A DNA stretch of 28,919 nt. It comes from a virus. This document shows, in pieces, positions 2,697 to 13,611 of this stretch. The notes beneath the pieces are model-generated. The model did no database searches. It was not told where the DNA came from and saw only the letters and a program-made list of their open reading frames with translations. The stretch spans positions 1 to 28,919 of the IMG/VR virus record IMGVR_UViG_3300047557_001636, one strand, 5' to 3'. Position 1 is the stretch's first letter; every line of letters starts with the position of its first letter. The position numbers and the translations under genes were made by a program.

Positions 2697-2862
2697 CAAC
2701 ATTTGAGCGGGCGTCGGCTGAGGAAAGCACCGCGCCCAATCCTCCAAGCACTCCGGGCAAATGGGCTGGTCGGCGATCCTCATGCGGCTTCGACCGAATG
2801 ATATTGGGCCGGAGGCAAAACCCGCACGTGGCATGAGTGTGGGGCTGGCGACGCTTAAGCAT
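2679..2862 (-). CDS. Small zinc-ribbon protein apparently split by a frameshift
   Basis: Starting at an ATG (2860-2862) that overlaps the end of the primase gene, one frame reads MLKRRQPHTHATCGFCLRPN and then loses protein-like character. The frame one base further along reads ADQPICPECLEDWARCF and stops at 2679-2681. Each frame alone supplies one Cys-x2-Cys pair; joined by a +1 shift near 2778-2783 they give a four-cysteine zinc ribbon of about 60 residues. Codon style also switches between frames there. Explanations are a broken gene, a sequence error or a programmed +1 shift. Without a shift the first frame would run to 2683 (59 aa), or a 34-aa product could start at the ATG at 2781-2783, though that ATG has no clear ribosome site. 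The function may be DNA or RNA binding; this is inference. Confidence 0.45.
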
Positions 2863-5239
2863 GGGCGACTCCTTGCAAGGGGAAAGGCACGCGGGAATGG
2901 TTGTTGGCCTGTTCGTAAGCCTTGGCGGCCTCCGCGGCGCCTGCAATGTGGCGGGCCTGGCTGTCACGGTGCACAAACAAGCGCGGCTTGCCGCCGTCCG
3001 GGAGCACCAGATTGTTGACCCGGCCGTCCGCCAATGCTGGATGGTAGTCGTAGCCCATGTCGTGGAGCATTTCTTTGCGCTTGGAGTGGGTAACGCGGCG
3101 GCCCGCCCCCAGGCGCTCCAAGAGGCGGTCGAGCTGAATGGAGGAAATCCAGCCGCCGCAAAAGCCCGGGAGCCCCTGGCCAATGGCCTCCGCAATCTCT
3201 TGCTCAATGCCGCCCGTGCTGGCCTTGATGGCCTCCGCGGTGGAGCTGGTCACGGGGGCACGCTGGCACCCGGTCGCCGGGTTGTATTCGTGCGGGATTG
3301 GGAAGGTATGCAAAAGCTCCGACACGATGGCGTAACCCTCAGCCCGGAGCCAGTTGTAAAGGTTGGGGAAGTATTCTCCCACCATGCCGTCGCGCGCCAG
3401 GTCCGCGGCTTGCTGTTGGGCGGAGAATAGCGTGCAGATCCGGCGGTCGTTTTGGGTCTTGCGCACGGCGTCCTTGTGGTTGCTGTTGAGCATGAAATTG
3501 CCGCACACGTCAGCTGAGATTTGGTCGACGCCCTTGCCTTCAATCTCGAGGCCGTCCCCGCCGGTAATCATGGGCTTTAGCTCCTCGAAAACCTCAGCTC
3601 GGCTATCGGGCAAATAAATGTCCTCCACCCCGTAAAAGACCTTGCCAATCATCCAGGAATTAAATTGCGCGGCCAGCTTGGACGCCTTGGGCCAATGCAC
3701 GTAACGGCGCCCCACGGCCTCAGCAACGCACCGGGTGAACAAGGTTTTGCCGTTGCCCTCCACGCCCTGCAGCAAGGGTGCCCATTGAAACTTGACGCCC
3801 TTATGCTGGACACAGGCGGACATATAGCTGAGGAGGATCAAGCGGTCGCGCTCGTCCGGGAGCACCCGGCGGAGGTGGTCCAGGAATGGGCCGGCGTCCC
3901 CCACTTGGCGCGGGACTTCGACCGGCCAATAGGTGTTGACAAAGACCTGGCCGCCGCGGGAAATGAGGGCGCCCGGGGGATGCTCAGGGCGGAAGCAAGG
4001 CGCGTCGGCACGTGGAGCCCGATAGGCTTGAGACTGTGTGAAAGCCTCCCACGGGTCGCGCGTGGTCTTTTCGTTGGCGTTGTCCATGGGGAAGGTGTAG
4101 CCCCCGAAGTTGACGCGGAATTGGTCCGGTTTGAGGAGCACGCCCCCGGGCACCAAAACCCGGTGGATATCACGGACGTAGACGCACCCTTTGAATACGT
4201 TTAGCTGGTCCTCAATCGACAGGAAAGTCGACCCCCGGACCAACGACGGCCGCGGAGACTCAGCGTCGACGCCCGCCACAAAAGGGCCGGCCACGGGCTC
4301 CGGCTCCTTGTCCGTCAGGACTTCAAATTGCCGCCCCACGGCCCCCAGGATGGTGCGGGGTAAGTAGTCCTCCCGCTCCCATTTGTCCCGGGCCAACGCG
4401 GAGCGCTCCATAAGCCGGCGGATCCGCTCACAGTTGCGGCCAGTCCAAAAGGCCAAGTGTTGCGCCAAGGCGGCGTCGGCCTGGCTGGCATTGTAGGCGC
4501 GGGCGTCGTCCGGGTAAGCCTTGCTCAATGCCTCCAGGTTGCCGCCCCACAGCTCCGCAAAGCTGGCGCGGTCACCAAAGGCCGCTGCACTCGATTGGGA
4601 GCGGAGCGCGCGACGCAAAAGCTCCTCATCATCCTCCGGCCCGCGCCATTCCGGGCACGGCTCCGTCGTCCACTCTTGCTCCAAGGCTTGGGAAGGATCC
4701 GGCGGGAAGTATTGAGCCACGAGGCTGGGGAGGACGTGCGAGAAGTCCGCCGCGGCGTTGCCGATGGCGCCGACGCCGGTCAGGGCAACAAAGCGGCCCG
4801 TGTGGTAAAGCTCGAGGTGTAGAGGCTCATTCTTGCACCCGTGAGCCGGCGGCCGGCCAGTGCCGAAAATGTGGAGCCCTTGGCCGGATTGGGAGACCTC
4901 CACGGCCGCCCCCGTGAAAGCCTGGCACAGTGCCACAGCCAGCGGGGACCATTGGCCGTCGGCCTGGAGGCACCCGTCGATATCCAGAAACCAGAAGGGG
5001 TCGGCCTCAGTAAAGACAAAGCCGACGCCATACGGGGCACCCCATTGAGCGGCGGCGGCAATAGCTGTGGGCGCGTCGGTCCAGAATGCCGGGTCGTGAG
5101 CGGAAACCACGCGGCCGGAGCGGAAGTCGCACGGGAATTTATCGGTCTTGCCGGGCCTGGTCCGGCTGGGTTGCGCGATGTAGACAATAAACTGGCGGTA
5201 CGCCCCCATTGGCGCCAGTGCTGCCGGTAATTCGCGCAT
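2855..5239 (-). CDS. PrimPol-helicase replication protein (NrS-1 polymerase-like), 794 aa
   Basis: The N-terminal third has the archaeo-eukaryotic primase/PrimPol pattern: FLDIDG (about 84-89) with the catalytic aspartates, SQSGQGLHIFG (116-126) and ELYHTGRFVALTG (143-155). A helical segment follows (about 205-305, with HLAFWTGRNCERIRRLM), resembling the helix-bundle domain of NrS-1-type enzymes. The C-terminal half is a superfamily 3-type ATPase: Walker A GVEGNGKT (492-499), an acidic pair in GVEDIY (539-540), sensor-like SNHKD (586-590) and NDRR (597-600). Family members prime and extend DNA and unwind it as rings. ATG at 5239 has GGGAG 6 nt upstream, three bases after the stop of the TetR-like gene, so both probably share the promoter at 5601-5630. 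With the family B polymerase further right it would form the replication core. Confidence 0.88.
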   Translation of the reverse strand: MRELPAALAPMGAYRQFIVYIAQPSRTRPGKTDKFPCDFRSGRVVSAHDPAFWTDAPTAIAAAAQWGAPYGVGFVFTEADPFWFLDIDGCLQADGQWSPLAVALCQAFTGAAVEVSQSGQGLHIFGTGRPPAHGCKNEPLHLELYHTGRFVALTGVGAIGNAAADFSHVLPSLVAQYFPPDPSQALEQEWTTEPCPEWRGPEDDEELLRRALRSQSSAAAFGDRASFAELWGGNLEALSKAYPDDARAYNASQADAALAQHLAFWTGRNCERIRRLMERSALARDKWEREDYLPRTILGAVGRQFEVLTDKEPEPVAGPFVAGVDAESPRPSLVRGSTFLSIEDQLNVFKGCVYVRDIHRVLVPGGVLLKPDQFRVNFGGYTFPMDNANEKTTRDPWEAFTQSQAYRAPRADAPCFRPEHPPGALISRGGQVFVNTYWPVEVPRQVGDAGPFLDHLRRVLPDERDRLILLSYMSACVQHKGVKFQWAPLLQGVEGNGKTLFTRCVAEAVGRRYVHWPKASKLAAQFNSWMIGKVFYGVEDIYLPDSRAEVFEELKPMITGGDGLEIEGKGVDQISADVCGNFMLNSNHKDAVRKTQNDRRICTLFSAQQQAADLARDGMVGEYFPNLYNWLRAEGYAIVSELLHTFPIPHEYNPATGCQRAPVTSSTAEAIKASTGGIEQEIAEAIGQGLPGFCGGWISSIQLDRLLERLGAGRRVTHSKRKEMLHDMGYDYHPALADGRVNNLVLPDGGKPRLFVHRDSQARHIAGAAEAAKAYEQANNHSRVPFPLQGVAHA

Positions 5240-5242
5240 GCG

Positions 5243-5566
5243 TTACTCCCCGGCCAAAGTCTTGACGGCGGCGGCTTTCAGCTCCGGCGGGGCTTTTTGG
5301 GCGTTGGTGTCGCCGGCAGCCAGCCCTTGAGCGACGACGGCCAGGTTACGCGCTTGGATGGCGGCCCGCATGATGGCGCGGCGAAAGGCGACCATGGTGC
5401 CGAAATACTTGGAGGGCAAACCCTCCGCGCAATTGGCCTCCTTGGCCACAGCATGCCGCGTGAGGTTGGCCCAGCCGCCGGGCTTTGCCGCGACCTTGAT
5501 GGCGGCGTCGAGAATTTCTTGCTTACGGTCGGCGGGACACAGCCGGCGGGAGGTTTGCTTGGTCAT
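5243..5566 (-). CDS. Short TetR-like DNA-binding protein, 107 aa
   Basis: Residues about 14-66 fit the N-terminal DNA-binding domain of TetR-family regulators: a first helix (RKQEILDAAIKVAA), then a helix-turn-helix around 34-57 (NLTRHAVAKEANCAEGLPSKYFG) and a following helix (VAFRRAIMRAAI). Normal TetR proteins are about 190-220 aa and carry a ligand-binding domain; this one has only about 40 Ala-rich residues after the DNA-binding part, so it probably cannot sense a ligand in the usual way. It lies directly behind the class II palindrome at 5615-5630, which overlaps its own -35, so autoregulation is likely and control of the two other class II sites is possible. No good ribosome site precedes the ATG. 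TetR assignment is from pattern only. Confidence 0.65.
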   Translation of the reverse strand: MTKQTSRRLCPADRKQEILDAAIKVAAKPGGWANLTRHAVAKEANCAEGLPSKYFGTMVAFRRAIMRAAIQARNLAVVAQGLAAGDTNAQKAPPELKAAAVKTLAGE

Positions 5567-5600: not shown

Positions 5601-5630
5601 ATGGTAGCTAGTCAATGACGCTGCCGTCAA
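5601..5630 (-). promoter_or_regulatory. Class II promoter/operator upstream of the TetR-like and primase genes
   Basis: On the minus strand, TTGACGGCAGCGTCAT (5615-5630) gives a -35 TTGACG inside a palindrome with arms TGACG/CGTCA. A weak -10 TACCAT (5601-5606) follows at 18 bp. The same palindrome with small changes occurs at 8759-8774 and 10367-10382, each time over a -35. The TGA stop codon of the upstream membrane-protein gene lies within the -35. Confidence 0.65.
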
Positions 5631-5881
5631 CGCCTACGGATGAAACGATGGTGCACCCACATTGACGCCACGATGCCAAAGGGTCCGCCGGTCAGATAGG
5701 CGACCATTTCCAACACCGTGGCATTTGGGGCCAGTTTGAGAACGACGAGATTCGAGGCGCCAATGCCAAAAGACGTAAGGAAAGCCGCCACGTAATGGCC
5801 CCGGTTCACGTTGAGAGACTGGAGGCCAAGGAAAAAGACCAAGGCGAAAGTGGACAGGAATAGGGCCAGGAGGCTGGTCAT
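5627..5881 (-). CDS. Small membrane protein with about three hydrophobic helices, 84 aa
   Basis: Begins MTSLLALFLSTFALVFFLGL and has three hydrophobic stretches, at about residues 3-21, 31-53 and 58-77, the last ending GGPFGIVASMWVHHR before a basic tail (RFIRRR). This makes it an inner-membrane protein with few loops. The start is the ATG at 5879-5881 that overlaps the stop of the nuclease gene (ATGA); a longer frame upstream is only overlap with that gene. Size and topology could fit a holin, but it lies among DNA-metabolism genes, far from the endolysin, so I do not call it one. Its stop codon is embedded in the -35 of the next promoter. Confidence 0.65.
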   Translation of the reverse strand: MTSLLALFLSTFALVFFLGLQSLNVNRGHYVAAFLTSFGIGASNLVVLKLAPNATVLEMVAYLTGGPFGIVASMWVHHRFIRRR

Positions 5882-6363
5882 AACGTACCCTCTCCGGCAC
5901 AGAACGCCGCGTCGCCCCCGACAGCGGTCACAAGCTGCGCCCAATTCAATTGCGCGACCTCATGGTCGTCGCCAACGTAGTGCCACCCGGGCCGCTTGCA
6001 TTCCCGGCTCACAAATTGCCCGATAACCTGGCCGACGTGCCGGGGCCCAATCAGCACAGGCCGGACCCCGATCAAATCCCCGGATTTGCAAACCTCGTTG
6101 ACATGCTTGGAGTCATTGGCGAGGCCGTAGCGCACCGGCACGCCCCGGGCATCGACCAAGGCGCCGACGTTGTTGCGCCACAGCCTCACACCCTTGCGGG
6201 CGGCTTCCAGTCGGACGGCCGATTGCACGGCGGCTTCACTGGTGCCCTTGACTGTGGCCGGCAACGTGTGGCCGCCGTGCATCCCGAAGAGGGCTTGCAG
6301 TTCGTTGAGGGCTTGCATGGTGACGCCGTGGCGCACGGCCCATTGGTAGACGGCTGGGGTCAT
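5878..6363 (-). CDS. VRR-NUC domain nuclease, 161 aa
   Basis: Matches the phage VRR-NUC (PD-(D/E)XK) fold: an N-terminal helix with SEAAVQSAVRLEAARKG (Glu43), a strand LWRNNVGAL, then SGDLIG (Asp96) and QFVSRECKRPG (Glu121, Lys123), which together form the usual metal-dependent active site. Family members cut branched or structured DNA and in phages are thought to act in recombination or in resolving replication intermediates. The first 40 residues are an extra N-terminal helical part. The gene starts 3 bp after the methyltransferase gene and overlaps the membrane-protein gene by ATGA, so it belongs to the leftward unit that starts at the SF2 helicase. Confidence 0.82.
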   Translation of the reverse strand: MTPAVYQWAVRHGVTMQALNELQALFGMHGGHTLPATVKGTSEAAVQSAVRLEAARKGVRLWRNNVGALVDARGVPVRYGLANDSKHVNEVCKSGDLIGVRPVLIGPRHVGQVIGQFVSRECKRPGWHYVGDDHEVAQLNWAQLVTAVGGDAAFCAGEGTL

Positions 6364-6366
6364 GCT

Positions 6367-6963
6367 TCAAATACCAAAAAATAAGAATGGAAAATTCTGG
6401 CGTGTCTTTGCTGCCCCCCCTCGGTTGGGTGATGGCAAGCGATGTTTTGCCGGAAGGATGAATAGGTCAACCAAACGCATGCCGACGTCTTCCGCCCATT
6501 TAATGACATTTGCATGCGTGCAGTGCATCCGGTGATTGTGAATAATGTCTTGACATTTGAATATCAAAATTCCGCCTTTTCTTAAGATTCGACGACTTTC
6601 GACCAAAGTACCCTTGTAATGGGTTTCGAGTTCATCGTAGCGCCAATATCCCGCAAAACGATTCGCCATAATCATTTTGCCGTTTCCTTCGCGACCAGCG
6701 CGAACGTATGTTAAAAACGGCGGGTCAAAAACAACACTATTTAAGCAACCATCGATTAACGGAAGCGCCGTGCTGCACGCTTCGATAACGTCGTCGGCCT
6801 GCGGGTCAATGTCAAATTTAAGAACCGGCGGTGCAATGTCTCCGTAAAATTTTCCATTGCCGTAAGTTATGTCGCAATCAAAACCTTGCGGGCAATATAG
6901 GGCTTGAATACCCTTAAGAATTTCAATTTGGTCAAAACTTACCGATTTAATAACTTCGTTCAT
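6367..6963 (-). CDS. DNA methyltransferase (DPPF type), 198 aa, unusually AT-rich
   Basis: Has the catalytic motif IV of amino-methylating DNA methyltransferases, VVFDPPFLTY (DPPF at 80-83), followed by a typical strand/loop RILRKGGILIFKCQDI and a C-terminal NFPFLFFGI. DPPF/DPPY enzymes methylate adenine N6 or cytosine N4. It is short for the class and I do not see a clear FxGxG SAM-binding loop, although DIDPQ (51-55) may belong to the SAM site. Base and codon use are clearly richer in A/T than the genes on both sides, a sign of separate origin. It starts 2 bp after the helicase gene, with AGGGG before the ATG. The target sequence is unknown. Confidence 0.75.
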   Translation of the reverse strand: MNEVIKSVSFDQIEILKGIQALYCPQGFDCDITYGNGKFYGDIAPPVLKFDIDPQADDVIEACSTALPLIDGCLNSVVFDPPFLTYVRAGREGNGKMIMANRFAGYWRYDELETHYKGTLVESRRILRKGGILIFKCQDIIHNHRMHCTHANVIKWAEDVGMRLVDLFILPAKHRLPSPNRGGAAKTRQNFPFLFFGI

Positions 6964-6965
6964 TT

Positions 6966-8717
6966 TTACCCCTGATTTGCAAAATATGCGGCAGCGTCGA
7001 CCGTCCCGTCAATGCCGACCTTTGCCAATTCAGCGTTGACCCGGGCCGTCAGTTCTTCCGCCTCACGGGTGCCCAGGGTTTGAGCGTTCGCCACGTCTAG
7101 CCCAAAGCGGTAATAAAAACGACGGTAGCTTTCGGACTCTCCACGACCTTGCGCGGCTTCTAGCCCGGCCCACCAGGCGATAGCGTTACGCAAGGCGGCT
7201 TGGCCCTGCTGGCGTTCCCAATGGCGCTTGCGGACGGCGCCAGCCACTTCCGGGGCGGCTCCATAGGGGATTACCGCGTCGCCATCAATGCGGGCAATCT
7301 CCCCGCGGAGGGCGGCCAAGGTCTCCGCGTCTAGCTCCGTGAGGTCGCCGTCGACAAACTCCGGGGCGCTCCGGCTTGGGGGCGGCGGGTAATGGCCACA
7401 GTAGGGGCAAGACTTGTGCACGCGCTCGTAGGGCTGGAGGCATAGGTCGTTGACGCAAACCCGGAGCGGGATGGCGTCCGACTTCTTGCTACTCCTCCGC
7501 TCCCGGCGGTCCAAGCTCCATTCCCGCCGGGCGTCCGGGAGCCCGTGGCGGAGCACGTTGTTGACGTGGTCGATGATAAAGGCGACCGGCTTTTCGCTGG
7601 CTGCAATGGCCGCCCGGCGCCCCTCGTCCGTGAGGTTGGCATGCACCGCTCCCGCCTCCTTGCTGAGCATGAGCCGGAGCGCACGGCCAAATTGCTGGGA
7701 GTAAAGGGCGAAAGACTCCGTCGGCCGCGCAAAACTCACGACCTCAATTGCCGGGAGGTCGAAGCCTTCCCCGAATAGATCCACGTTGACCAACTGGAGC
7801 ACTTCCCGGGCTTTGAAGCGGCGGAGGATTTGCGCCCGCAAGGCGTCCGGAGTCTTGGCGCTTACGACCTCCGCCGGCACGCCCTGAGCGCGGAATGCGG
7901 CAGCAATCTCCCCGGCGGCCTCCACGTCGACCGCAAAGGTCACTCCCAGCTTTCCCGGCGCCAGCTTGAGGTAATGGGCCACGACGTCCCCGGTAATGTG
8001 GGACTTGTGCACGGCTTTGCGGAGCTGGTCCGCGTTGAAATCCCCGGTCGCCTGGCTCGTGGCCACTTGCGACAGGTCCAAGTCGGACGGCGGGGCAAAA
8101 ATACGGTAGTCCGTCAAATAGCCCATGTCGATGATATCGCGCATGGAGGGCGCCAAGACCATGGCGTCAACCAGCCCGTCCGCATGCCGCCCAAGCCCCT
8201 TGCCGTCCGCCCTCTGCGGCGTGGCTGTGGGATATAGGCCGCGGGCGTTGGGGAACATGGCTGCTGCCGCGCCCCATTTGTTGGCCTTGAGGACGTGGTG
8301 TGCCTCGTCCTGGACAACCAGCTGCACTTGCTTAAACCACGGGTCGGCGGCATCCATGCGGATAACGGTATCCACTCCGCCGACGCCGGTCTTGGCGTTT
8401 GGGTCAAAGAAGCTGTAACCCAGCTCCGCGACCTGCAGCGCGCTGATTACCCGGATCAAGCTGGAGCCCTTCTTGGCGCCGGCAATGCGGTGGCGGACGC
8501 CGTTACGGGCCAAGGCGATGGAGATTTGGCTTACAAGCTCCTGGCGGTGGGCGATGGCAATGGAGGCGCCGGGCTCGTCGTAAAGGATTTTGGACAGGAG
8601 CACGGTTTTTCCGGAGCCCGTGGCGGCCACAGGCATGACGTTGACCGCTCCGGTTTGCCAGGCGGCGTAAACGCGGGCTTCCAGCTCAGCTTGGAAAGGA
8701 CGTAAAGGTACGGGCAT
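6966..8717 (-). CDS. SF2 DNA/RNA helicase (DEAH) with zinc ribbon, 583 aa
   Basis: Contains the ordered motifs of a superfamily 2 helicase: Walker A ATGSGKT (32-38), AHRQELVSQ (56-64, motif Ia), DEAH (137-140), TATPQR (164-169, motif III), LFGEGFDLP (314-322, motif V region) and QFGRALR (342-348, motif VI). A four-cysteine zinc ribbon follows (Cys 421, 426, 437, 440), then a helical C-terminal domain of about 140 residues. Such phage helicases, related to the UvsW/RadD-like group, are linked to recombination and fork remodelling. The gene starts a leftward operon with a methyltransferase, VRR-NUC nuclease and membrane protein. Its promoter (-35 8769-8774, -10 8746-8751) shares a palindrome with the plus-strand gene at 8812. 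The ribosome site is weak (GAGA). Confidence 0.88.
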   Translation of the reverse strand: MPVPLRPFQAELEARVYAAWQTGAVNVMPVAATGSGKTVLLSKILYDEPGASIAIAHRQELVSQISIALARNGVRHRIAGAKKGSSLIRVISALQVAELGYSFFDPNAKTGVGGVDTVIRMDAADPWFKQVQLVVQDEAHHVLKANKWGAAAAMFPNARGLYPTATPQRADGKGLGRHADGLVDAMVLAPSMRDIIDMGYLTDYRIFAPPSDLDLSQVATSQATGDFNADQLRKAVHKSHITGDVVAHYLKLAPGKLGVTFAVDVEAAGEIAAAFRAQGVPAEVVSAKTPDALRAQILRRFKAREVLQLVNVDLFGEGFDLPAIEVVSFARPTESFALYSQQFGRALRLMLSKEAGAVHANLTDEGRRAAIAASEKPVAFIIDHVNNVLRHGLPDARREWSLDRRERRSSKKSDAIPLRVCVNDLCLQPYERVHKSCPYCGHYPPPPSRSAPEFVDGDLTELDAETLAALRGEIARIDGDAVIPYGAAPEVAGAVRKRHWERQQGQAALRNAIAWWAGLEAAQGRGESESYRRFYYRFGLDVANAQTLGTREAEELTARVNAELAKVGIDGTVDAAAYFANQG

Positions 8718-8745
8718 TTGCGTATTCTCAAATTACGGCGAAATC

Positions 8746-8786
8746 GGTATTTGCTTTGTTGACAGCATCGTCAATAATGGTACCAC
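8746..8786. promoter_or_regulatory. Divergent promoters sharing a class II palindrome
   Basis: TTGACAGCATCGTCAA (8759-8774) has perfect 5-bp arms, and each arm is a -35 box. Plus strand: TTGACA (8759-8764) with TACCAC (8781-8786) at 16 bp, toward the gene at 8812. Minus strand: TTGACG (8769-8774) with AATACC (8746-8751) at 17 bp, toward the helicase gene. A protein bound here would block both -35 boxes at once. Confidence 0.65.
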
Positions 8787-8811
8787 GTTAACCCAACGAG
8801 GAGCCCTAGCC

Positions 8812-9165
8812 ATGAAACCGAAAACCGTACAAATCAGCCACGCCGTCGCCAAGGCCTTGGAAACCAGCAAGCGGACGGCCGACGAGGTGTTGCGCGAAGT
8901 CCTCCAGATCAAGTCGGAAGGCCTTGAGACTGCGGAAGGTGTCATTTTCCCGGAGGGTACCGCTTTCCTGTCCTGGTACAAGGAGCGCCCGCATTGGGGC
9001 CACGTCAAGGACGGCGCCATAGTCATCCAGGGGGAGCGCTTCCCCAGCGTGTCCGCCGCGGCCGTCAAAATTACCGGGCGGCCGACCAACGGGCGGGACT
9101 TCTGGCAAGCCAAGCTCCCCGGGAAATCGGAATTTGTCCGCATTTCCAAGCTACGCCAAGGTTGA
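8812..9165 (+). CDS. DUF4357/RAMA-like small protein, 117 aa
   Basis: The C-terminal half (AFLSWYKERPHWGHVKDGAI... FPSVSAAAVKITGRPTNGRDFWQAK) has the pattern of the DUF4357/RAMA-like domains that accompany methyltransferases and other DNA-modifying proteins and are predicted to recognise DNA. The N-terminal half (KTVQISHAVAKALETSKRTADEVLREVLQI) looks like a short ribbon-helix-helix or SeqA-like oligomerisation segment. The ATG at 8812 has GAGGAG upstream. It is a single-gene plus-strand unit driven from the divergent promoter at 8746-8786. Its last 15 bases overlap, tail to tail, the end of the methyltransferase gene at 9151. The function is inferred: a DNA-binding protein possibly linked to the phage's own methylation. 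Confidence is high that the gene is real, moderate for the family. Confidence 0.7.
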   Translation: MKPKTVQISHAVAKALETSKRTADEVLREVLQIKSEGLETAEGVIFPEGTAFLSWYKERPHWGHVKDGAIVIQGERFPSVSAAAVKITGRPTNGRDFWQAKLPGKSEFVRISKLRQG

Positions 9166-10350
9166 CCGTCGGGCGGCATATTCCGCGTGTTCCGTGTCCA
9201 GCTCAAAGGCGACGCATTGGAAGCCCTCGAGCTTGGCCGCCAGCGGGAAAGTGCCGGAGCCCGCAAACAGATCCAAGAGCGTGCCGCCTGGCGGGCAAAT
9301 GAGCTTGGCCAGGTAACGACCCAAGGCCAGCGGCTTGACAGTGGGGTGCTTGTTGTCCTTGCCCTTCTCGCTCTTGCTGGCCTTGGCGCAATAGTGGAAT
9401 AAAGCCGCCTCCAAGTCGTACTGGACCCATCCGCATTGCTGAAAGAAGCGGGCCGCGCTCCCGGCATCCGGCCGCGGCTCCGCGCCATTGCTCCCCCGCG
9501 CCATATTCCCGTACACGTTTTGAGTCTTTCGGTTATCTGAGCGCGTGGAGGCCTTGGCAAGTTGCCCCGCGGCCTCCGGGAACATTTCCAGCACCTCCGC
9601 CGACCCGTCATGGATAAAGTTGGCCGGCCATCGCCCGTCGAGCCCCAGCACCCGGGCGCCCTCTTTCGGTCCCGTGGTATTCATTCCCCAGCCATCCGCC
9701 CCGTCGTGCTGGCTTACATTCATGGTCCGGAGCTGGGAGGCGTCCGCCACGGGGTCGACCGGGATCCTGCAGCCGTCAATGTTGAGACCGCCCACGCCCC
9801 AAGCCAGCACATTGGCGGCCACGGTGGGGGCTTGCATTGGCTTGCGTGCGACACAAATGGGCTCGTGAGCGGGCTTTAGGCCGGTGCCCCAGCCTTCCCA
9901 CAGCTGAGCGGCCAGCGTAGCGGGGGCGGTAATGTCGAAAGACTCCCCAAAGCCATAGCCTTCGTCGCGCCCCGTGGCCGCCCGGTATTGCTGGCCAACG
10001 ACTTGGCGCTGAGCCCCGTAAATCTTGTCGATTGCCTTGGAAATGTCCAGGGACTTGGGGAAGCCTGAGCCGTAGACCCACATGATGGAATCCCGCACCT
10101 CAAAGCCGGCATCCTCAATGGCACAGGCCATGCGGTGGTAAGTTCTGGAGCCGGAGAAAGCCAGCATGTGGCCGCCAGGCTTGAGGACGCGGAGCGCTTC
10201 CCGCCACATGGCCACGTCGTAGGCGATCCCGGAGCGGTCCCATGCGTGCCCCATAAAGCCCAGCTCATAGGGAGGGTCGGTAAGGATCGCGTCGACGCTG
10301 TTGTCCGGGAGCATCGCAAGGCCGTGTCGGCAATCCAAGTTCAAAATCAT
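9151..10350 (-). CDS. DNA methyltransferase (N4/N6 class), 399 aa
   Basis: The catalytic motif AILTDPPYELGFMG (DPPY at 25-28) lies near the N-terminus, and the SAM-binding motif LLDLFAGSGTF (about 358-368) lies near the C-terminus, preceded by HPTVKPLALGRYL. This order is that of beta-class amino-methyltransferases, which modify adenine N6 or cytosine N4. The region in between (about 100-330) would hold target recognition. Length is normal. No restriction endonuclease partner is visible, so it is likely a solitary phage enzyme that protects phage DNA or marks it; a divergently controlled DUF4357/RAMA-like gene overlaps its 3' end. The ATG at 10350 has no ribosome site, and a -10-like TATAGA lies just 5 nt upstream, suggesting a leaderless mRNA. 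Confidence 0.88.
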   Translation of the reverse strand: MILNLDCRHGLAMLPDNSVDAILTDPPYELGFMGHAWDRSGIAYDVAMWREALRVLKPGGHMLAFSGSRTYHRMACAIEDAGFEVRDSIMWVYGSGFPKSLDISKAIDKIYGAQRQVVGQQYRAATGRDEGYGFGESFDITAPATLAAQLWEGWGTGLKPAHEPICVARKPMQAPTVAANVLAWGVGGLNIDGCRIPVDPVADASQLRTMNVSQHDGADGWGMNTTGPKEGARVLGLDGRWPANFIHDGSAEVLEMFPEAAGQLAKASTRSDNRKTQNVYGNMARGSNGAEPRPDAGSAARFFQQCGWVQYDLEAALFHYCAKASKSEKGKDNKHPTVKPLALGRYLAKLICPPGGTLLDLFAGSGTFPLAAKLEGFQCVAFELDTEHAEYAARRSTLA

Positions 10351-10355
10351 TTTTA

Positions 10356-10395
10356 TCTATACCCTGTTGACGGTAGCGTCATTATCGGGAATACT
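10356..10395. promoter_or_regulatory. Divergent class II promoter region
   Basis: Plus strand: TTGACG (10367-10372) and AATACT (10390-10395) are 17 bp apart, toward the gene at 10434. The -35 lies in TTGACGGTAGCGTCAT (10367-10382), one base different from the site at 5615-5630. Minus strand: TATAGA (10356-10361) could serve as -10 for the methyltransferase gene, but its -35 is weak and only 15 bp away (ATGACG, 10377-10382). The sequence 10352-10368 also resembles the -10 and leader of the class I promoter at 13658. Confidence 0.6.
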
Positions 10396-10433: not shown

Positions 10434-11450
10434 ATGGTGCAAATCAGCTGTAACCCCGCGGACCTCAACGGCGCCCAGCGCAAGGCCGTGGCCGACTTTG
10501 TTCTCAACTTCCCGGGCGCTTGCGCTGGCTTGTGTGGGGGCGTGCCGCACGAAACCACGGTCGTCGCTGAAATCCACGACACGACCGCCACGGTGGCGCT
10601 TGTGCCCCAAGTCAATGAGCTGGATGCCCTCCGGCACGATCATGAGTCGACCATGCCGGAGGCCGCTTTCGGTGCCGTAGATACTGCGCCGGCCGCCGCT
10701 TTCGGCCTTCCCGATATTGGTCAACTCGAGGTGTCTCCAGCCGCTGCTTTCGGAGGTGTCCTCGCCGCCCCTTTGGTCGGTTCCACCCCCGTAATTGTGG
10801 GGGCCTTTACCGTTGCCCCGCCGCCCCCGGCGAATACTGCCCCGACTACGACGACGCTTGGTCCTGTCTCTTTGGCCGCGGGTGCCGCGCCGGCCGGTGT
10901 TGAGCTGGACAAACACGGCCTCCCGTGGGATAACCGTATCCACGCGGAAAGCAAGGCCAAAATTGCCGACGGCTCCTGGCGAAAGAAGCGCGGCGGTGAT
11001 CCGGTCTTGGTTGCCCAAGTTGAGGCGGAATTGCGCCAAGTCATGGGGGCGCCGTCCAGCCCTTTGGTCCAAGGTGTTGCACCTGCCCCGACGCCTGTTT
11101 CCGTTGCGGCCTCTACCACTGTACCGTCTGCTCCGACTGGCGCTGTCCCCCAGCCGGTAGCGCCCCCGCCCGCTCCCGCCCCTGTAGTTGGTGCGGCACC
11201 TTCCATGCCGGCGGCCCCGAGTGCTGCCCCCGGAGCTGAGGTTGCCCAGCCAGATCCGCGCCAGCAATTTGTCGCGCTGATTGGCCGAGCCTCCGCCGCT
11301 ATCCAGGCCGGCAAGGTCACGCAAGAGGAAATCAATCAGGTTTGCCAAGGTGCCGGAATTCCCGCGCTCCCGCTCCTGGCCAATCGCCTGGACCTCGTGG
11401 GCACCGTGGCCGCTTCCATCGACGCAATCATTGCGAGTCGTGGCCAATGA
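10434..11450 (+). CDS. Ala/Pro-rich phage protein with GLPWD motif, 338 aa
   Basis: The protein combines a short N-terminal domain (about 1-70), a long low-complexity Ala/Pro/Val region with three AAFG repeats, a compact conserved-looking block VELDKHGLPWDNRIH...SWRKKRGGDP (about 156-190), a second Pro/Ala linker, and a C-terminal helical domain (about 268-338). I have a general memory of the GLPWD block in other phage early proteins, without a known activity. The gene is first in an operon with a RecB-like nuclease and a probable ssDNA-binding protein (ATGA overlap with the former), which suggests a role in recombination or replication, perhaps as a partner of ssDNA. The ATG follows GGAG at 10 nt. 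An open frame on the minus strand here is a codon shadow. Confidence 0.72.
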   Translation: MVQISCNPADLNGAQRKAVADFVLNFPGACAGLCGGVPHETTVVAEIHDTTATVALVPQVNELDALRHDHESTMPEAAFGAVDTAPAAAFGLPDIGQLEVSPAAAFGGVLAAPLVGSTPVIVGAFTVAPPPPANTAPTTTTLGPVSLAAGAAPAGVELDKHGLPWDNRIHAESKAKIADGSWRKKRGGDPVLVAQVEAELRQVMGAPSSPLVQGVAPAPTPVSVAASTTVPSAPTGAVPQPVAPPPAPAPVVGAAPSMPAAPSAAPGAEVAQPDPRQQFVALIGRASAAIQAGKVTQEEINQVCQGAGIPALPLLANRLDLVGTVAASIDAIIASRGQ

Positions 11451-12589
11451 GCGGCGCCCATTCAGTCCTCCCGCCCTCCGGGGCGGCGGCTTGGAAACTG
11501 TGCGCCCTTTGGGTCACCATGAACCAAGCCTATCCCCAGCCCGACACGCCGGAGACCTTGGAGGGCAACGCCGCACATTGGGTGGCGTGGGAGTTGTTGG
11601 CCGGCCGCCAGGTATCGGAAGGCACGCCCGCCCCCAATGGGGCAATCATTACCGACGAAATGATCGGAGGCGCGGAGCTTCTGGTCGACACGGTGCGCAC
11701 CCGCATGCCGCTGGAGACTTTCGAGCAATGGCACGTGGAGGAGCCGGTAAGTATTGCCCGGATCCATCCGCAATGCTGGGGCACGCCGGACGTTTGGGCA
11801 TTCTCCCGTGCCTCCGCGGTGCTCGAGGTTGCCGACTATAAATTCGGGCACCGCTTTGTCGACGAGTACGAAAACGACCAAGGCGTGGCGTACACGGCCG
11901 GGATTTTGGATAAGCTGGCGGAGATTTTGGGCAAAGGCCCGGGGCTCCTGGATCAAGCTGTAACCGTCAACTTTACGGTCATCCAGCCCCGATGCTTTTA
12001 CAAGGGAAAGCCCGTGCGCACGTGGTCTGTGAGGGCTTCCGACCTCCGGGCGCATATCAATATCCTGTCCAATGCAGCAGGGGTGGCCCTGGCGCCCAAT
12101 CCGCCGGCCGTTACCAATGAGGAATGCCAGGATTGCCCCGGGCGCCATGCGTGCCCAGCGTTGCAAAAGGCGGCCTATCACGACGCGGAGATTGCCACGC
12201 GCTCCAGCCCCGTGGAGTTGCCACCGGCCGCCGCGTCCCTGGAGTTGCGCATGCTCGAGCGCTCCTTGGCCCGCTTGCAATCCCGAGTCGAAGGGCTCCG
12301 GGAAGCTGTGGCCACGTATGGGCGCCAAGGGCATCCGACGCCATTCCACCGCTTGGAGCAAGGTTACGGTCGACAGCAATGGACCGTCCCGCCGGAGCAA
12401 GTCTTGGCCATGGGTCAGCTATTTGGCGTCGACCTTTCAAAGCCTGGCGTAAAGACCCCGACGCAAGCTAAAAAGTCGGGCGTTGACGAGGCCGTCATTA
12501 AGGCATACAGTATTACCCCATTGGGGTCGATTAAGTTGGTTCCCGATAATCCCGCCGACGCCCGCCGGGTGTTTGGTTCTACGTTCTAA
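11447..12589 (+). CDS. DUF2800-type RecB-like nuclease, 380 aa
   Basis: The start is the ATG at 11447 that overlaps the previous stop (ATGA); the longer upstream frame is overlap only. The protein begins SGAHSVLPPSGAAAWKLCAL, like DUF2800 proteins, which carry a Cas4/RecB-like PD-(D/E)XK nuclease fold. Candidate catalytic residues are His near HWVAWELL, Asp in GTPDVWAF, and Asp and Lys in VLEVADYKFG. Near residues 225-240 a cluster CQDCPGRHACPAL, with Cys201 in PRCFYKG possibly also contributing, recalls the metal or Fe-S cysteine cluster of that superfamily. A helical C-terminal part follows. The likely role is exonuclease action on phage or host DNA ends in recombination. It is followed after 11 bp by the ssDNA-binding gene. 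Confidence 0.75.
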   Translation: MSGAHSVLPPSGAAAWKLCALWVTMNQAYPQPDTPETLEGNAAHWVAWELLAGRQVSEGTPAPNGAIITDEMIGGAELLVDTVRTRMPLETFEQWHVEEPVSIARIHPQCWGTPDVWAFSRASAVLEVADYKFGHRFVDEYENDQGVAYTAGILDKLAEILGKGPGLLDQAVTVNFTVIQPRCFYKGKPVRTWSVRASDLRAHINILSNAAGVALAPNPPAVTNEECQDCPGRHACPALQKAAYHDAEIATRSSPVELPPAAASLELRMLERSLARLQSRVEGLREAVATYGRQGHPTPFHRLEQGYGRQQWTVPPEQVLAMGQLFGVDLSKPGVKTPTQAKKSGVDEAVIKAYSITPLGSIKLVPDNPADARRVFGSTF

Positions 12590-12600
12590 AGGAGTTTCGC

Positions 12601-13611
12601 ATGTCTCAGCGTATCAATATCACTTCCCCGGTCGGCCGCATCGTTATGGGCTCCCTGTACGACCCCAGCACCACGGACGCGGAAGGCAAGCCGCTGGTCG
12701 TAAAGACCGGCCCCAACGCCGGCCAGCCGCGCGTCAACTACTTCTTTGCCCTGGCCATCCCCAAGGGCGGCGAACCCCATTGGGCTCATACGCCGTGGGG
12801 TCAACAAATTTGGGCCGTCGGCAATCAGGCCTTTCCCAATGCCGCGCAATCCCCGGCCTTTGCTTGGAAAATCGAGGACGGCGACAGCCAGATCCCCAAC
12901 AAGAAGGGCCGCAAGCCTTGCGACAATGAGGGCTGGAAAGGCCATTGGATCCTCAAGTTTTCCGGCGGCTTTGCCCCCAAGGTGTACCAGCAAGAGGGCG
13001 CCGGTTACGTCCAGGTCATGCCAAAAGACTTTTGCAAGCCGGGCTATTTCGTGGAGGTCGCCTTTAGCGTGGAGGGCAATGGTAGCCAATCCCAGCCGGG
13101 CGTCTACCTCAATCATTCCATGGTTTGCTTCCGTGCCTACGGCCAGGAAATCCAATTTGGCCCGGACGTCGCGTCGGCTGGCTTTGGCCAAGCTCCGCTC
13201 CCCGCTGGCGCCAGCATGACGCCGCCGGCCGGTGCCATTCCGATGCCACAGGCTCCCGCCGCGGGTGTCCCCGGCATGCCTCCGGCTCCGGGCGTAATGC
13301 CTGGCGCGGCCCCGACCATGCCGTTGCCTCAAGGTCTCCCGCAAGTGCCGGGGGTTGCTCCGCTCCCTTTGCCGCCCGCTGGTTCTGTGCCGATGCCCTC
13401 CGCCCCTGTCCCGGGTGAGCCTGTGCCCATCCCGGTTATGCCTAATACCGGCTTTGTCCAGGTGCCCCCGCCGGCTCCCGCTCCCGTGGCTCCCCCGGCC
13501 GCACCGATGCGCCAAATGACGCCGGCCGCCCAAGGTATCCCCTATGAGTCCTACATTGCCCAAGGTTGGACCGACGCGCTTCTGGTTCAACACGGCATGA
13601 TGCTGGCCTAA
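12601..13611 (+). CDS. Probable ssDNA-binding protein (DUF2815-like) with long Pro-rich tail, 336 aa
   Basis: The first 195 residues look like an OB-fold ssDNA-binding protein of the DUF2815 type: ITSPVGRIVMGSLYDP near the start, VNYFFALAIPKG, WKIEDGD, GHWILKFSGG, PGYFVEVAFSVEGN and PGVYLNHSMVCFRAYG. A very long Pro/Ala/Met/Val linker (about 200-305) leads to a short conserved-looking end, YESYIAQGWTDALLVQHGMM. In ssDNA-binding proteins such tails usually recruit partner proteins. A strong ribosome site (AAGGAG, 12590-12595) precedes the ATG, consistent with high expression. A hairpin terminator follows the gene at 13621. The family is judged by pattern and by operon context with the nuclease; no search could be made. 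Confidence 0.72.
   Translation: MSQRINITSPVGRIVMGSLYDPSTTDAEGKPLVVKTGPNAGQPRVNYFFALAIPKGGEPHWAHTPWGQQIWAVGNQAFPNAAQSPAFAWKIEDGDSQIPNKKGRKPCDNEGWKGHWILKFSGGFAPKVYQQEGAGYVQVMPKDFCKPGYFVEVAFSVEGNGSQSQPGVYLNHSMVCFRAYGQEIQFGPDVASAGFGQAPLPAGASMTPPAGAIPMPQAPAAGVPGMPPAPGVMPGAAPTMPLPQGLPQVPGVAPLPLPPAGSVPMPSAPVPGEPVPIPVMPNTGFVQVPPPAPAPVAPPAAPMRQMTPAAQGIPYESYIAQGWTDALLVQHGMMLA

Follow-up and report, generated by a model that had tools for sequence, protein, structure and literature searches.

The 28,919 bases of the IMG/VR virus record IMGVR_UViG_3300047557_001636 (called the window here, and probably a fragment) encode a small TetR-like protein of 107 amino acids (aa), and a short palindrome recurs upstream of its gene and of operons predicted to serve replication. 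In all likelihood this protein is an autoregulated repressor of early promoters, of the TetR type and devoid of a ligand pocket, and very probably it shuts off the early genes. The initial annotation of this DNA had viewed the protein and the palindrome as a regulator and its operator. That interpretation is supported by the comparative sequence analysis: the palindrome accompanies the TetR-like gene in many phage lineages, adjoins that gene on its upstream side and covaries with residues of the helix-turn-helix (HTH) of its product. The gene and the four putative operators in the window are listed below; the scores, in bits, come from a weight matrix made from the sites of related phages.

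5243 to 5566, minus strand: the 107-aa TetR-type HTH regulator (phrog_8723), which lacks the C-terminal ligand domain.
5615 to 5630, minus strand: operator 1, TTGACGGCAGCGTCAT, which precedes the start codon of the TetR-like gene by about 50 bp and is found in the same position in 32 of 53 relatives.
8759 to 8774, plus strand: operator 2, TTGACAGCATCGTCAA, flanked by the divergent helicase operon (minus strand) and a RAMA/DUF2924-like gene (plus strand); at 25.6 bits the top site of the window.
10367 to 10382, plus strand: operator 3, TTGACGGTAGCGTCAT, between a divergent methyltransferase gene (minus strand) and a 338-aa recombination/single-stranded DNA (ssDNA) gene (plus strand); 19.9 bits.
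12483 to 12498, plus strand: operator 4, TTGACGAGGCCGTCAT, within the last part of a DUF2800 gene; the open reading frame (ORF) at 12601 follows 110 bp downstream; 19.7 bits.

The first three palindromes lie exactly where the initial annotation had placed them, the first of them indeed directly upstream of the TetR-like gene, and its pattern has no other exact match in the window. Its list was nonetheless incomplete, since it missed operator 4, which scores as high as the others; this site is followed by TACAGT at a spacing of 17, and its position is kept in 24 of the 53 relatives. When up to three mismatches are tolerated, the window contains 12 matches to the pattern versus 1.43 expected in shuffled sequence, and none of 100 shuffles reached 12. 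Operators 1 to 3 are all intergenic. The intergenic DNA of the window amounts to about 1.8 kb, and under a uniform model it should hold approximately 0.05 sites that deviate from TTGAC-N6-GTCAA by one mismatch or none.

The comparative set comprised about 95 records with a homolog of the 107-aa protein; the loci were picked by similarity to the TetR-like protein or to the neighboring primase, and the motif was never a criterion. Four phages were inspected at the outset. Scuro, 138 and JD001 have the element both ahead of their TetR gene and where the helicase and recombination operons diverge; in the fourth, AeroV_348, it was not clearly seen. With all records pooled, the perfect form TTGAC-N6-GTCAA occurs 89 times (in 42 records) versus 0 to 5 times for each of the other spacers from 0 to 20. 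A blind ranking of all 5-mer inverted repeats with spacers of 0 to 15 returned the same element at its head, in the two registers TGACG-N4-CGTCA (120 occurrences) and TTGAC-N6-GTCAA (89), the next repeat having 33. The full site has the consensus TRTTGACGRnnYCGTCAAYA, in which TTGAC occupies the position of a −35 box, and a TATAAT-like hexamer follows at 17 or 18 bases in 65 of the 89 perfect sites (at least four matches, better side; about 18 would be expected for one side). The carriers of the operator include phages of Klebsiella, Pectobacterium, Vibrio, Acinetobacter, Shewanella and Edwardsiella, and in these relatives it lies some 30–50 bp upstream of the TetR-like gene, in the stretch that separates the helicase and recombination operons, and ahead of the ssDNA-binding gene.

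The association of protein and palindrome extends beyond mere neighborhood. The exact 20-bp palindrome is present in 21 viral records of IMG/VR, nine of which carry phrog_8723, a family with a base rate of about 0.1% of phage records (54 of 50,697; homologs also occur in most of the viral contigs retrieved via the primase); a control pattern with one additional spacer base (the N5-spacer control) was found in three records. When the distinct homologs were divided into 59 operator users and 21 non-users, the best separator among 102 alignment columns was Gly49, with which the recognition helix begins; it is present in 43 of the 59 users versus 2 of the 21 non-users, a comparison uncorrected for kinship. 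A second residue follows the sequence of the operator itself. Among users with Arg or Lys at residue 37, 47 of 50 have a G6 fraction of at least 0.25 in their operators (the grouping is post hoc and uncorrected for kinship); the four users with Val or Leu there have operators with little or no G6, the base being mostly A in L004, L037 and L047 and T in L045. The sisters L037 and L043 (98/98 support) differ in both residue 37 and operator. This pairing of Arg37 with G6 may reflect an arginine–guanine contact.

Six phages that share the helicase and lacked a BLAST match to the TetR-like protein at selection served as controls. One of them, Edwardsiella phage MSW-3, turned out to have an overlooked homolog, gp58 (L172:36989-37273, E 1.5e-24), which is annotated as hypothetical; MSW-3 has six sites of at least 14 bits, one of them 62 bp upstream of gp58. 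Phage MR14 has a short homolog, one strong site and several weaker ones. In Stenotrophomonas phage B2 and in Silvanus the HTHs have diverged and there are no sites, and in Mulvp2 and 1.251.O no homolog was found and an excess of sites was not clear.

The window protein matches the phrog_8723 profile over residues 1–105 (E 6.5e-32). Taken alone, it falls below the cut-off for the Pfam family TetR_N (PF00440; E 0.0073); TetR_N is matched by 27 of 33 relatives (best 1.3e-11), and a joint profile of the relatives matches TetR regulators of solved structure (E 4.9e-10). Its AlphaFold2 model, with a predicted local distance difference test score (pLDDT) of 90.4, contains the TetR-type HTH on which the initial annotation had staked its proposal: helices at 11–27, 37–44, 49–55 (the recognition helix) and 58–71, followed after helix 4 by only short helices at 75–83, 87–90 and 94–105. 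The top structural matches of the model are TetR regulators (Z 8–10.7 over 68–100 residues; Foldseek E-values are all >0.001). The predicted absence of a ligand domain is likewise confirmed, as helices 5–10 have no counterpart in a protein of 107 aa in total; in their place stands a conserved tail of about 35 residues, AQGLAxGDxxAxKAPxELKxxALxxL. Because this C-terminal domain is missing, the protein belongs to the TetR HTH superfamily and is not a canonical two-domain TetR, and it may, for the same reason, be the "ligand-free early switch" of the initial annotation.

In many relatives the protein is a tandem form, about 165 aa long, whose chain contains two TetR-type HTHs (29 records have two domain hits; predicted pLDDT 89). 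It is carried by L048, L049, L052, L056, L073, L076, most of L079–L099 and the phages L004 and L009; its N-terminal HTH has a conserved IPDGSF motif, and most carriers use the same operator. The modeled tandem chain is possibly a covalent pseudo-dimer that sits on the same palindrome. A TetR homolog is also present in the Pseudomonas phage Psp6 (L010:4508-4753), in which csrA is annotated as well.

The genes that surround the operators in the window are the following.

2855 to 5239, minus strand: primase (phrog_1829, NrS-1 polymerase-like), which immediately follows the TetR-like gene.
5627 to 5896, minus strand: holin-like small membrane protein (phrog_7045), at the end of the helicase operon.
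5878 to 6363, minus strand: endonuclease (phrog_93), in the helicase operon.
6367 to 6963, minus strand: DNA methyltransferase 1 (phrog_24333, E 1.1e-66).
6966 to 8717, minus strand: DEAD/ResIII helicase, which heads the operon behind operator 2.
8812 to 9165, plus strand: DUF2924/DUF4357/RAMA-like gene behind operator 2.
9151 to 10350, minus strand: second DNA methyltransferase, of the N6/N4 type, behind operator 3 (N6_N4_Mtase, E 7.7e-25).
10434 to 11450, plus strand: phrog_11133 gene, which opens the recombination/ssDNA operon behind operator 3.
11342 to 12589, plus strand: DUF2800 exonuclease-like gene (DUF2800, E 2.6e-23); the start is that of the mechanical ORF, and the true start is probably further in.
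12601 to 13611, plus strand: gene behind operator 4, located where JD001 and PEAT2 have their Gp2.5-like ssDNA-binding protein, as judged by position and by tblastn matches in relatives; it has no Pfam match.

A long pentapeptide-repeat gene with near-identical repeats (315 aa) occupies 1680 to 2627 on the minus strand; it is probably also the source of a short inverted repeat, TTCGC-N3-GCGAA, that has 11 copies in the window.

In the scoring of 53 loci, sites were found ahead of the TetR-like gene in 32, the helicase gene in 24, the gene in the ssDNA-binding place in 24, the recombination operon in 22, the RAMA-like gene in 13 and the second methyltransferase gene in 11. The Vibrio phage 138 and the Klebsiella phage JD001 have extra sites 10–70 bp upstream of cassettes of small genes, several of which oppose virion genes; the regulon therefore appears to extend genome-wide over the nonvirion genes. 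On the mechanism that we propose, the 107-aa protein would bind TTGACG-N4-CGTCAA as a dimer. This operator, which has two-fold symmetry, overlaps the −35 box and upstream spacer of putative early promoters of the host sigma70 type, which are predicted to drive the TetR-like gene with the primase, the helicase/methyltransferase/nuclease operon and the recombination/ssDNA-binding operon; given that overlap, binding should exclude RNA polymerase. On infection the host RNA polymerase would fire these promoters and the protein would accumulate until it blocked its own promoter and the other early ones, a negative autoregulation that would result in early-gene shut-off.

Several observations weigh against this scheme. 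The initial annotation had each site supply a −35 box, and this holds for the hexamers themselves (TTGACG or TTGACA), but the −10 boxes that go with them in the window are mediocre, with 3–4 of 6 matches. The canonical TetR dimer interface is missing in the 107-aa protein, and dimerization must therefore use the tail or the DNA. Apart from Gly49, the recognition helix varies considerably among the operator users, and a phylogeny-corrected test of the link between Gly49 and the operator had two supported contrasts only, on a weakly resolved tree. About a quarter of the distinct homologs (21 of 82) have no such operator nearby. Conversely, the prophage-like records L101, L103, L109, L111, L116 and L117 each have one exact 20-bp palindrome, intergenic, with no homolog found, and bacterial sequence has the palindrome too, in 45 contigs that are scattered and show no TetR homolog in the vicinity.

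The prophage-like records would suit a palindrome that is the site of some other phage or host regulator, with the TetR-like protein merely sharing its gene module, and the window does encode another small protein, RAMA/DUF2924-like, behind operator 2. We nevertheless hold this to be improbable: variation in the operator goes along with that of HTH residues in the TetR-like protein, 32 of the 53 loci have a site directly upstream of its gene, and phages that have the protein and lack the motif tend to have an altered recognition helix while they retain the primase/helicase module. Far less credible still, to the point of being negligible, is the notion that the sites are plain sigma70 promoters in which TTGAC(A/G), which is the −35 consensus, is followed by GTCAA through coincidence. 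The symmetry extends to TRTTGACGR...YCGTCAAYA, and a −35 box without a second arm is refuted because that arm recurs at the N6 spacer only (89 versus 0–5).

If the protein does bind the palindrome, its effect might be other than repression. Some TetR-fold regulators, those of the LuxR/HapR type, activate as well as repress, and such regulators are among the structural matches of the model; a role as activator, dual regulator or replication timing factor is still a minor prospect, as the operator overlaps the −35 box and upstream spacer, an architecture that in general fits occlusion, and the sites are found at promoters that include those of small nonstructural genes. An autoregulated repressor placed over early operons also obeys the logic of a prophage repressor, and a function in lysogeny or superinfection immunity, instead of a lytic-cycle shut-off, is unlikely. 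Phage 138 has been characterized as lytic and devoid of lysogeny genes (PMC3391216), and no integrase or lysogeny module was recognized among the genes examined in the window, itself a 28.9-kb fragment. Early-promoter repression during the lytic cycle is the preferred reading, and the carriers of the mini-TetR constitute a family of mostly lytic phages.

The clades with the protein and without the motif are AeroV_348, CKB-S1, PD0307, 97.13, PY6, SFCi1 and several contigs, and a de novo search for replacement operators in them gave none that was convincing. Inspection by eye revealed that in PD0307 and CKB-S1 other repeats, AATTRACGYGGAGAAARTTAGCA and GCTAGATTAGCGCT, recur ahead of the TetR gene as well as in the divergent region at the helicase; they are candidate diverged operators, at the following positions.

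L011:36230-36260 and 30980-31095: repeats of the PD0307/CKB-S1 pair.
L012:36440-36550 and 40825-40870: repeats of the same pair.

In L103 and L116, the two prophage-like records examined closely, the palindrome lies upstream of a 212-aa ORF near the terminase. Two further attributions were considered and rejected: a bacterial regulon on the same operator, in view of the scatter of the 45 contigs and the lack of a homolog nearby, and an FNR/CRP-type site, in view of the spacing, which is TTGA-N8-TCAA here and TTGA-N6-TCAA in FNR sites.

The control of the early-to-late transition in small nonmodel lytic phages, including the therapy-relevant Klebsiella jedunaviruses, has so far been mostly obscure, and the present analysis offers a testable regulator, operators and target genes across many genera. 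The operator would also aid annotation, since it can expose regulators that were overlooked, as MSW-3 gp58 was, and early genes dispersed between those of the virion; and the unusually small TetR and its tandem versions open dimerization and specificity to study without a ligand domain.

TetR-like genes were noted in the phages phiPLPE, CP-T1 and 138 in 2012 (Comeau et al., PMC3391216), in a paper that suggests they are co-opted bacterial genes linked to osmotic stress and in whose text the words "promoter," "operator" and "palindrome" are absent. The genes of CP-T1 and 138 belong to the same protein family as that of the window, and the gene of 138 has the same neighborhood. A search of the open-licence literature, directed at operators of phage TetRs, at promoters of jedunaviruses and at minimal TetR proteins, gave no report of this operator or regulon; as far as that literature shows, the genes were already known and the operator and regulon are new. 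We think it fairly likely that they represent a widespread and previously undescribed system: TetR-type repressors without a ligand pocket, with single or tandem HTHs, that share one conserved operator, a genome-wide early regulon and a readable specificity code (Arg37 with G6, and a Gly that opens the recognition helix); in such a system the sequence alone would suffice to predict regulator, operator and early genes.

Like the TetR family at large (TetR, QacR, KstR, BetI), the mini-TetR has an N-terminal three-helix HTH with the TetR_N pattern plus helix 4, and a short palindromic putative operator that lies over a promoter, with a probable autoregulation site upstream of its own gene. Unlike them, it consists of only about 100 residues, with a short conserved tail and no ligand-binding/dimerization domain; it is phage-encoded and predicted to control replication operons, and many of its relatives have two HTHs per chain. 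The mini-TetR system would also resemble the Cro/CI-type repressors of lambda, which are small phage HTH dimers, autoregulated and positioned over early promoters; it differs from them in its TetR-type HTH, in its single operators in place of tripartite clusters and in having no recognized lysogeny module.

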